Source: Nitrospirae bacterium CG2_30_53_67
GTDB lineage: Bacteria > CG2-30-53-67
Direction of reading: 5' to 3'
Length of the DNA: 23,606 bases
Assembly: GCA_001873285.1 (NCBI GenBank)
Contig: MNYV01000055.1
Location: forward strand, 1 to 23,606
This document shows positions 5,790 to 21,531 of this stretch, in pieces; within the stretch, counting starts at the first letter, position 1; every line of letters begins with the position of its first letter. The notes under the pieces are model-generated. The model saw nothing but the letters and a program-made list of their open reading frames with translations, was not told the origin of the DNA and made no database searches. The position numbers were made by a program, and so were the translations under genes.

Positions 5790-5925
5790 GTCATTCCACG
5801 ACCCTCCGATCGGGGGATTGGAGGGCATGCTTGATCGGGGAATCCATGGTTCGACAAGCTCACCATGACAATTGTCACCCTGAGCCTGTCGAAGGGTGGA
5901 TTGTCCGGTCGAGCCGGACAATGAC
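5790..5925. repeat. Dispersed intergenic repeat R2, copy B
   Basis: A 136-bp element with GTCATT at 5790 and AATGAC at 5920-5925, inverted relative to copy A near the left end of the window. The 78-bp core (5833-5910) is identical to 135-212; the tip sequences differ, including an extra GATCGGGGGATTGGAGG stretch. It fills most of the 228-base gap between hemC and cobA-hemD, so it sits inside the heme cluster and would be transcribed if the cluster is one operon. Its long foldback could act as a processing or attenuation site. Confidence 0.85.
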
Positions 5926-14601: not shown

Positions 14602-14629
14602 GGCCTACACGGGTATCGTTAGAATTTAA

Positions 14630-14988: not shown

Positions 14989-14992
14989 GAAT

Positions 14993-15901
14993 TTAAAAGG
15001 CTGCTGGGTCTTGTCTGCGGTCCGCAGGGATCAGCCCATACTCATTCATGACTGCACTCAGTCTGTTTCTGTTTACCTCTCCCATCCTGCAGAGGGGAAG
15101 GCGGAACTCATCCTCGCATTTCCCCATGAGATGGAGAGCGGTTTTGACCGGGATCGGATTGGTCTCGAAAAACATGGCTTCCATGAGCCTGAGCAGTTCA
15201 TAATGCAGAGACCGCGCCTGGTCCGGGTCCCCGTCAAAAAAGGCCCGGACCATCTCCGACATCTTTCCGGGCGCCACATTGGCAACCACGGAGATAACGC
15301 CTTGGCCCCCGATGTCCAGAGTGGGAAGGGCCGTGAAGTCGTCCCCGGAGAGGACCACGAAATCTTCACGGCACAACTCAATAATTTTGCTGATCTGACG
15401 GAGGTCGGCCGATGCTTCCTTGATCCCCGTGATTTCACGGATACCCGACAGGCGGGCCACGGTTTCGGGAAGGATGTTCAGAGCGGTCCTGCCGGGCACA
15501 TTGTAGAGAATCAGGGGGAAGGAGGTCTCTTGGGCTACTTTTTTGTAATGTTGGTAGATCCCCTCCTGCGTGGGTTTATTGTAATAGGGAGAGATCAGCA
15601 GGGCCCCGTCCGCCCCGGCCTTTTTTGCCGCCCTCGTCAGTTCGATGGTCTCAGCCGTGGAATTGGACCCTGTCCCCGCCAGTACCGGGATCCTGCGGTT
15701 CACGGCCTGTACGGTGATCCGCACGACCTCCTTGTGTTCCTCATGCGTCAGTGTGGCCGATTCACCGGTGGTGCCGCAGGGGACGATCCCGTCGACCTTC
15801 TCTTCAATGCAAAAATGGATCAGCGCCCTGAGGGCCTCTTCATCTATCTTGCCGTCTTTTTTAAAGGGCGTAATGATGGCAGGCAGCGTACCTTGAAACA
15901 T
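14993..15901 (-). CDS. dapA: 4-hydroxy-tetrahydrodipicolinate synthase
   Basis: Condenses pyruvate with aspartate semialdehyde, entry to the lysine and diaminopimelate pathway. It has 302 residues. The active site is complete with the numbering of the E. coli enzyme: T44 and T45 in PCGTTGES, Y107 in SPYYNKP, Y133 and R138 in LYNVPGRT, and Schiff-base lysine K161 in GIKEAS. The ATG at 15901 has AAGGAGAAG upstream, and this ribosome site overlaps the stop of the preceding zinc-ribbon gene (9-base gap), so the two are co-transcribed. No dapB follows; repeat R1 begins 4 bases past the stop. Related aldolases such as N-acetylneuraminate lyase are excluded by the full set of DapA residues and by dapF upstream. 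Confidence 0.97.
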   Translation of the reverse strand: MFQGTLPAIITPFKKDGKIDEEALRALIHFCIEEKVDGIVPCGTTGESATLTHEEHKEVVRITVQAVNRRIPVLAGTGSNSTAETIELTRAAKKAGADGALLISPYYNKPTQEGIYQHYKKVAQETSFPLILYNVPGRTALNILPETVARLSGIREITGIKEASADLRQISKIIELCREDFVVLSGDDFTALPTLDIGGQGVISVVANVAPGKMSEMVRAFFDGDPDQARSLHYELLRLMEAMFFETNPIPVKTALHLMGKCEDEFRLPLCRMGEVNRNRLSAVMNEYGLIPADRRQDPAAF

Positions 15902-17306: not shown

Positions 17307-17347
17307 TTGACCCCTTATGGTTTCACCCACGCTTTTGGAGATGATCT
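17307..17347. repeat. Intergenic repeat R1, solo end upstream of dapF
   Basis: 41 bp matching one end of R1: TTGACCCCTTATGGTTTCAC, then CCACGC, then TTTTGGAGATGATCT. The same terminal TTTTGGAGATGATCT occurs at 14974-14988, and its complement starts the compact copy at 19917. The second end is absent. The inner side ends three bases before the dapF ATG. Confidence 0.75.
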
Positions 17348-17379
17348 AAATTGAAAATTTATCACATCATGATGCGGAA

Positions 17380-19607: not shown

Positions 19608-19864
19608 CAGAACAGAAATAGTTTTCCTAAAAAAGAAACTTTTTTTCCATTTTTTTGTATTCTTTCATTTGTCATTTTTCTGTGTTCCAATTGAGCGTTT
19701 TTTATGTTACACTAACCCTGTTTGATGGAGATATTCCTATGGATTTTACATCGGTTTGCCTTTTTTTGACCCGTTGAAGGATGTGGATGAGATGGATAGG
19801 GTGGATAGAAGATAAAATATATGAATATGCCGGGATTTTAGGTTAGATATGCATAAATTGGTTA

Positions 19865-19882
19865 TTGGCACACGATTTGCAA
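19865..19882 (+). promoter_or_regulatory. Predicted sigma-54 promoter
   Basis: TTGGCACACGATTTGCA has GG at 19867-19868 and GC at 19879-19880, exactly ten bases apart, with TGGCAC and TTGC as in the -24/-12 consensus. Transcription would start near 19892, about 180 bases before the activator ATG. Upstream, 19780-19808 holds spaced GGAT words, but no clear palindromic activator site was seen there. Confidence 0.7.
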
Positions 19883-19916
19883 AAAAAACCGTTGATTTTC
19901 ATTATAAAGTAAATAA

Positions 19917-20042
19917 AGATCATCTCCAAAATAGTGGGTGAAAACATCAGGGGTCAAGGGGTCAAGGATTCCAGGGTTCACTTGACCCCTTGAACCCTGG
20001 AATCCTCGAACCCTTTTTACCCACTATATGGGAGAAGAACCG
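19917..20042. repeat. Intergenic repeat R1, compact foldback copy in the leader of the sigma-54 activator
   Basis: A 126-bp element with imperfect terminal inverted repeats. The left end (AGATCATCTCC, then ATAGTGGGT at 19931-19939) pairs with the right end (ACCCACTAT at 20019-20027, then GGAGAAGAACC). Inside, AGGATTCCAGGGTTCA at 19965-19980 is the perfect 16-bp complement of 19991-20006 around a 10-base loop. The element lies between the predicted sigma-54 start and the activator ATG, so the RNA leader would carry the whole hairpin, ending 28 bases before the ATG. No protein is encoded. Confidence 0.85.
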
Positions 20043-20070
20043 TAAATAAGAGCCATTGTTAAGGAGCTTC

Positions 20071-21531
20071 ATGCCTGAAGAGGCCACTATTCTTGTTATT
20101 GATGATGAGCTTGAGATCGGTAACTATCTCAAGACGCTGATCACACAGTTTGGGTACAGGTCAGAGATCGCTACGAGCGGGAAGGACGGTCTGCAGACCA
20201 TTCAGAGGATCAGGCCCGAGCTTGTCATCCTTGATGTGGTCATGCCGGATATGGACGGGCTTGAGGTCCTGAAACAGATACAGGAAGAAAAAATGGATAC
20301 GAGCGTGATCATGCTTTCGGGCCACCGTCAGACGAGCACGGTGGTCGGGGCCATGAAACTCGGAGCAGCCGATTTTCTCAACAAGCCGTTTGATCCGGAG
20401 GAACTGCAATTCACGATCAGCAAGGTTTTGGAGAGAAGGAATCTGATCTCAGAGGTTCAAAGACTCAAAAAACAGGTCAGTGAACAGAACGGGAACCAGA
20501 TCCTTTTTGGGAACAGTGAAAAGATGGGGGCCATCAAAGAGATTATCGAACAGGTTGCGGATACGGATATTACGATATTGATCCGTGGTGAAAGCGGCAC
20601 GGGGAAGGGGCTGATCGCCCGTTTCATCTATATGAATTCCAGCCGGCGGGACCGGCATTTTGTAAATGTGAACTGTGCGGCGCTTCCTGCCGAACTTCTG
20701 GAGAGCGAACTCTTCGGATATGAACGCGGGGCCTTTACCGGCGCCCATAAGAAAAAGCCCGGGAAGTTTGAGTTTGCAAACCATGGGACCATATTCCTGG
20801 ACGAGATCGGTGAGATTCCACCGGCCCTCCAGGCCAAGCTCCTGCAGGTCCTTCAGGATGGGGAGTTTGCCCCGCTGGGGAGTGAACAGGATGTCCGGGT
20901 GGATGCCAGAGTCATCGCGGCATCCAACAGGGATTTGGAAGCCGAGGTGGCGAGGGGGAAATTCAGGGAGGATCTTTACTTCAGATTGAATGTGGTCAAT
21001 ATTACGGTCCCGCCCTTGAGGGAAAGGATGGAAGAGATCCCGATCCTCACCGAGCATTTTCTGCAGAAATACAATCGTAAGTACAACAAAGACTATAAGA
21101 AGATTTCCAAGGAGACCATGGGCCTTTTCATGCAGTACAACTGGCCGGGGAATGTGCGGGAACTGGAGAACATGATCAAACGGGTGGTGGTCCTGGAGAG
21201 CGAGAAACCGATTGCCACCGAATTTCTCCTGAAAGAAGAGGATAAAGTCAGATCGGAACGGAAGAATGGTTCATCGGGATCCGGGGGGAATATGACGGCA
21301 TCCGGAGAATTCAGCTTTATCGATCCTCTTCTGGAGGGAAAGGATCATAACTTCACCCTGCGGGAGATCAGCAAAGAGGCATCCAAGAGGGCCGAGAAGG
21401 AACTCATCGAAAAGATTCTGAGGCAGACCAATTGGAACCGTAAAAAAACAGCAGAGATCCTGCAGGTCAGTTATAAGGCCTTGCTTTATAAGATAAAAGA
21501 GAATAAAATAGACAAATTTTCAGACTTTTAA
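20071..21531 (+). CDS. NtrC-family sigma-54-dependent response regulator
   Basis: 486 residues from the ATG at 20071, chosen because AAGGAG lies 5 bases before it; an upstream TTG at 20056 adds only five residues. The receiver (1-120) is complete: D11/D12, phosphoacceptor D55 in LVILDVVMP and K105 in LNKPFD. The AAA+ domain (about 143-385) has Walker A GESGTGKG at 173-180 (the usual final Glu is Gly), the sigma-54 contact loop GAFTGA at 220-225, Walker B FLDEIGE at 242-248 and FREDLYFRLN with the arginine fingers. A Gly/Ser-rich linker (about 395-415) leads to a Fis-type helix-turn-helix at 455-480. It should activate sigma-54 promoters, probably its own and those of the polysaccharide genes starting 24 bases downstream. 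Confidence 0.95.
   Translation: MPEEATILVIDDELEIGNYLKTLITQFGYRSEIATSGKDGLQTIQRIRPELVILDVVMPDMDGLEVLKQIQEEKMDTSVIMLSGHRQTSTVVGAMKLGAADFLNKPFDPEELQFTISKVLERRNLISEVQRLKKQVSEQNGNQILFGNSEKMGAIKEIIEQVADTDITILIRGESGTGKGLIARFIYMNSSRRDRHFVNVNCAALPAELLESELFGYERGAFTGAHKKKPGKFEFANHGTIFLDEIGEIPPALQAKLLQVLQDGEFAPLGSEQDVRVDARVIAASNRDLEAEVARGKFREDLYFRLNVVNITVPPLRERMEEIPILTEHFLQKYNRKYNKDYKKISKETMGLFMQYNWPGNVRELENMIKRVVVLESEKPIATEFLLKEEDKVRSERKNGSSGSGGNMTASGEFSFIDPLLEGKDHNFTLREISKEASKRAEKELIEKILRQTNWNRKKTAEILQVSYKALLYKIKENKIDKFSDF

Follow-up and report, generated by a model that had tools for sequence, protein, structure and literature searches.

R1, a Short Copy of an Orientation-Biased MITE Family in the Leader of a Sigma-54 Activator Gene

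The foldback repeat R1, which lies just upstream of an activator gene in a stretch of 23,606 nucleotides from Nitrospirae bacterium CG2_30_53_67 (hereafter the window, meaning the whole stretch analyzed), is an ordinary short member of its family of MITEs. As far as the open-access literature shows, this family is new, and in the genomes searched it is confined to one genus. We consider it very likely that R1 was moved by cut-and-paste transposition, most likely by a transposase of the ISL3 family, and that the surviving copies acquired their biased orientation most likely through the loss of reverse insertions.

Structure of R1 and Its Relatives in the Window

The first-pass annotation described R1 as a foldback element of 126 bp with inverted ends; the element is real, and its true end lies at 20041, which gives a length of 125 bp. 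Its parts are the following.

19909–19916, no strand: left copy of the target site duplication (TSD), GTAAATAA, 8 bp, defined on the basis of the 8-bp duplications found family-wide
19917–20041, plus strand: MITE copy R1 from left to right end, 125 bp
19917–19944, plus strand: left terminal inverted repeat, consensus GGATCATCTCCAAAAGAGTGGGTGAAAA (the first base of R1 is A, that of the consensus G)
19965–19980, plus strand: 5' arm of the inner hairpin, built of 8-bp repeat units
19991–20006, plus strand: 3' arm of the inner hairpin
20014–20041, plus strand: right terminal inverted repeat, consensus TTTTTACCCACTAAATGGGAGAAGAACC
20042–20049, no strand: right copy of the TSD, GTAAATAA

The sequence GTAAATAA thus flanks R1 on both sides as a perfect 8-bp direct repeat. 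The inverted ends are imperfect (84% complementary between 19920–19944 and 20014–20038), and the perfect 16-bp inner palindrome noted earlier is indeed present at 19965–19980 and 19991–20006, its arms enclosing a loop of 10 bases. Folded as RNA, R1 reaches –61.6 kcal/mol, with a z score of –6.3 relative to dinucleotide shuffles.

Relatives of R1 had also been recognized at two other sites of the window, and these are now resolved into one complete copy and one fragment.

14622–14629 and 14989–14996: perfect 8-bp duplication GAATTTAA around R2, the latter copy overlapping the dapA stop codon
14630–14988, minus strand: R2, complete MITE copy of 358–359 bp between dapA and hisD, in the same direction as the genes
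about 17312–17352, minus strand: R3, left-end fragment of the R1 family directly 5' of dapF, oriented with the genes

The interior of R2 is longer than that of R1 and contains arrays of octamers; R3 is unaligned in the sister species introduced below. The window also holds, at 130–215 and 5830–5915, a second foldback family with a CACCCTTCGACAGGCTCAGGGTGACAATTG arm, which has 28 intergenic copies in the genome (loci L227–L254).

Family Size, Range, and Target Duplications

A pattern search of the 2.36-Mb genome from which the window derives recovered at least 106 left ends and at least 81 right ends, and reversed control patterns of either end gave no match there. The genome-wide search for copies proposed in the first-pass annotation therefore leaves no doubt that R1 has further copies, and the accompanying checks on ends and target sites gave equally positive results, the ends being constant between copies and 8-bp duplications being present. 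This genome is a fragmented draft (95% complete, 183 contigs), in which many contigs end inside these repeats.

Among 79 genomes searched, the left end occurs in two, namely the own genome and one of the same genus, Hainich-H32-bin143-1 from Hainich samples, which contains 19 left ends and is hereafter called the sister genome; it was not found in the 77 more distant genomes, and none of the viral contigs searched carries the right end. Matches in two other metagenome-assembled genomes, Deltaproteobacteria CG_2015-17_54_20 and Omnitrophica CG11, were set aside as apparent stray contigs of the source species; in both, the element and its first flanking bases match those of own-genome copies.

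When copies were retrieved with their flanks and their ends paired, 62 pairings were obtained, of which 52 passed quality filters. These full copies measure 124–425 bp. A perfect 8-bp duplication surrounds 12 of the 52 (0.14 expected), and duplication identity is at least 7/8 in 23 of them (1.04 expected). Flank identity is 0.60–0.75 within the 8 bp and 0.23 at the next base outward; such duplications, together with this sharp drop, are typical signatures of cut-and-paste transposition. The duplications have an A+T content of 87%, and the empty-site consensus is approximately TTNNNAAWTNNNAA, symmetric apart from its centre. The family is thus multi-copy and small, and its members are without a transposase gene, as is typical of MITEs. 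Four copies (L064, L082, L087, and L124) have a common variant right end (ending in CCGATGGCTCGTAGAGGAGAAGAA) and perhaps form a subfamily.

Interiors Built of Exchangeable Modules

The constancy of the ends is not matched by the interiors, which consist of shuffled octamer modules: in addition to exchangeable modules, they contain arrays of 8-bp units that resemble TTGAACCC on one arm and GGGGTCAA on the other. The octamer arrays are not diagnostic of the family, since they are also present beyond the elements and, in rare cases, in other phyla. Comparison of five insertion sites between the two species shows that the left ends are kept (as are the right ends where both are present) and that the interiors differ strongly, which indicates that modules are swapped or lost without the copy changing its site. 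Element length would change as internal octamer modules are gained, lost, or exchanged. A perfect nested hairpin, CCCCGTTAGAG..CTCTAACGGGG, was seen at differing places in the interiors of L041, L116, L118, and L205, and that of L205 is missing from the ortholog of this copy in the other species.

Some copies also contain pieces of a gene for a four-helix-bundle S23/IVP protein (TIGR02436). All the pieces observed are truncated, interrupted, or cut by the end of a contig, and they are found only in longer copies; R1 itself has no S23p reading frame. In contigs C94, C22, and C123, which break within their TIGR02436 matches, these matches stop a few dozen bases before the right end. One could imagine from these pieces an orientation-locked foldback transposon that carries, or once carried, an S23/IVP gene, its insertion or survival being coupled to the direction of transcription, and thereby a type of mobile ancestor that might explain how S23p-bearing intervening sequences (IVS) entered rRNA genes. 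We regard this extended scenario as doubtful. S23 fragments within foldback copies that have clean duplications nevertheless offer a concrete starting point for explaining how S23p intervening sequences move.

A Candidate Transposase of the ISL3 Family

The proposed transposase would recognize the 28-bp ends and duplicate 8 bp at AT-rich sites resembling TTNNNAAWTNNNAA. The sister genome contains a degraded copy of an ISL3 transposase (PF01610) whose 5' end has the sequence GGTCTTCTCCCAAACGAGTGGGTAGGAA. Aligned with the MITE ends, this sequence scores 14–15, the maximum of 1300 background scores being 14; the similarity is short and concerns one end only of a broken ISL3 copy. The duplication length of the R1 family equals that of ISL3, of which the member ISAeme19 generates 8-bp direct repeats (PMC12554700). 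On the strength of this end alignment and this precedent, ISL3 is our best guess, and the R1 family is probably driven by an ISL3-type transposase. Against this attribution, no PF01610 match and hence no ISL3 transposase was found in the own genome (95% complete, with assembly breaks in repeats), and only one end of the broken remnant could be identified. ISL3 element ends from other genera of the taxonomic family did not score above background.

Another candidate was rejected: a tail fragment beside the right end at L105, considered as an autonomous partner, is the 3' end of an unrelated element with a 463-aa transposase, whose ends mismatch and which is probably nested. An insertion sequence with a 463-aa transposase (L255 and L256) is 98% identical between the two species, other compared loci being about 75–92% identical, which suggests recent transfer.

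Position and Orientation of the Copies

The surviving copies are almost all located in short spacers between co-directional genes, with their left end upstream. Genes were called by home-made hexamer scoring and the calls are approximate; on this basis, 46 of the 54 copies that have a co-directional downstream gene lie within 100 bp upstream of its called start, and the left end is within 10 bp of the stop codon of the upstream gene in about 20 of the 49 full copies for which this gene is on the same strand. The median length of the spacers, many of them short, is 61 bp.

These placements bear on the view that R1 is not a transposon at all, being instead an extragenic palindrome of the REP/ERIC type or an intrinsic terminator, retained for functions in transcription or in the chromosome. 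The elements are extragenic and fold strongly, and a TTTTT run often follows the right arm on the forward strand. Yet the 8-bp duplications and the species-specific presence point to transposition, no terminator-like site was called in the leader region of the activator, and a terminator would be polar in the short spacers that many copies occupy. This view therefore appears very improbable.

Of the full copies between co-directional genes, 46 point with transcription and two oppose it (p = 8e-12), and those with a duplication identity of at least 6/8 all point with it (28:0; p = 7e-9). The copies of the sister genome show a ratio of 9:2 (p = 0.065 taken alone). Both reverse-oriented full copies fall in the group with the CCGATGGCTCGTAGAGGAGAAGAA right end. 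At one orthologous site (L141 and L217) the element is apparently oppositely oriented in the two species, which suggests either inversion in place or independent insertion.

The 46:2 ratio could be explained by selection against reverse insertions or by an asymmetric target. According to the latter explanation, a transposase with unequal ends would read an asymmetric target, AAAT rather than ATTT, of a type that is concentrated around stop codons on the coding strand. The target core is indeed asymmetric, position 3 of the TSD being A in 28 of 34 cases and its mirror, position 4, being divided between A and T as 17:16; the many copies that start within 10 bp of an upstream stop fit the same idea. 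However, the orientation remains 20:2 (counted from individual rows) when the upstream stop is more than 20 bp away, the coding strand of the spacers has only a slight excess of A (A 0.29, T 0.25), and the few reverse copies do not tell which strand the asymmetry follows. An origin of the bias in insertion itself is thus a possibility to be taken seriously, albeit the less likely one.

We favor the loss of reverse insertions, which would disturb expression of the downstream gene, forward insertions being tolerated. Two observations weigh against selection, namely the asymmetry of the target core just described and the behavior of a control: 28 copies of an unrelated foldback family also lean 11:3 between co-directional genes, so that intergenic repeats here may in general favor one direction to some extent. 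Whatever its cause, the 28:0 orientation of verified insertions constitutes a natural test of what makes insertions between genes tolerable.

R1 in the Leader of the Sigma-54 Activator

The region surrounding R1 contains the following features.

about 19670–19720, plus strand: putative promoter segment (GTCATT..TGTGTTCCAATT..TATGTTACACTAACC), conserved with the sister species by alignment
19866–19881, plus strand: sigma-54-type box TGGCAC-N5-TTGCA, a perfect match to TGGCAC-N5-TTGCW, within a stretch missing in the sister species
20071–21531, plus strand: NtrC-type sigma-54 activator (receiver, AAA+, and Fis-type HTH domains by Pfam)

R1 had been placed between a GG-N10-GC promoter and the ATG of the sigma-54 activator, and the perfect box at 19866–19881 and the ATG at 20071 bear this out (the shuffle mean of the box search, 0.54, counts matches with at most one mismatch). 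A transcript from the box or from further upstream would consequently carry the hairpin. The same annotation let a large hairpin end 28 bases before the start codon; a stable hairpin does precede the ATG, at a distance of 29 bases. In the predicted fold of the leader, the AAGGAG Shine-Dalgarno sequence lies outside the hairpin. No Rfam family was matched in the window.

The sister species has an activator with 90% identity in the same gene order, and its leader contains neither R1 nor the sigma-54 box. R1 is absent at this orthologous site in leaders that differ elsewhere too, the junction not being aligned base by base; most simply, it would have landed in the spacer 5' of the activator after the split from the sister species. 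A leader stretch of about 190 bp with the sigma-54 box (window 19740–19905) is likewise missing from the sister species.

It had been suggested that R1 modulates the regulator, in other words that it is a domesticated leader element whose hairpin adjusts how the activator mRNA is translated or degraded and thereby influences the polysaccharide genes. Several facts are in keeping with this proposal: the very stable hairpin in transcripts from the sigma-54 box or further upstream, the forward orientation seen family-wide, and precedents such as Correia hairpins, which are cut in mRNA by RNase III, and ERIC, which alters transcript stability according to its orientation (PMC10969869, PMC2229807). 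The sister species, however, keeps the activator without the element and without the box, the Shine-Dalgarno sequence is not in the hairpin, and upstream placement is the default of the family, so that the position of R1 is no sign of a dedicated switch. Moreover, the terminal stem shows no compensatory changes among 49 copies (958 standard pairs vs. 955.8 in permutations, p = 0.15), and such uncompensated substitutions fit conservation as transposase binding sites, not as an RNA stem. The forward RNA folds better than the reverse in 44 of the 52 copies, an excess that is not independent evidence because the copies share ancestry. A dedicated regulatory role for R1 is therefore unsupported, and we judge domestication to be quite unlikely.

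With R1 read as a MITE copy at its customary place, at most a mild change of the leader RNA would be expected for the activator, and a nonspecific influence on decay of the mRNA or on read-through is possible by analogy with ERIC and Correia elements (PMC2229807, PMC10969869). The case illustrates how a repeat in the leader of a regulator can seem purposeful while occupying the default position of a mobile family.

Comparison with Known Systems

The intergenic MITE Chunjie of Geobacter uraniireducens measures 178–235 bp and has tens of copies plus many partial ones, and the title of the original report cited for it speaks of insertion into an operon without disturbance (PMC10969869). By description, it resembles the R1 family as an intergenic MITE with conserved inverted ends and direct repeats; unlike for the R1 family, the part of that source devoted to it mentions neither S23 cargo nor octamer modules nor a bias in orientation (PMC10969869).

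ERIC and Correia (NEMIS) elements are also similar to R1 by description, being about 100–160 bp long and extragenic, with inverted ends, and forming hairpins in mRNA co-transcribed with the neighboring genes; the effect of ERIC depends on orientation (PMC2229807). Most such small elements have a terminal TA motif (PMC2229807), whereas the R1 family has GG..CC ends and 8-bp duplications.

The IVS of 23S rRNA are foldbacks of about 430 nt with a terminal stem and an S23p reading frame, and they have been proposed to originate by transposition (PMC4990558). Longer copies of the R1 family similarly hold S23-like (TIGR02436) fragments inside a foldback; in contrast to IVS, they lie between protein genes and their S23 pieces are broken or truncated, with none in R1.

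Finally, ISL3 insertion sequences share with the R1 family the 8-bp direct repeats (as in ISAeme19; PMC12554700) and inverted ends starting with GG, and differ from it in that the family is without a transposase and no intact partner was found in the own genome. Overall, the R1 family is probably an ISL3-type MITE with two uncommon traits, its near-absolute orientation and its S23 cargo.
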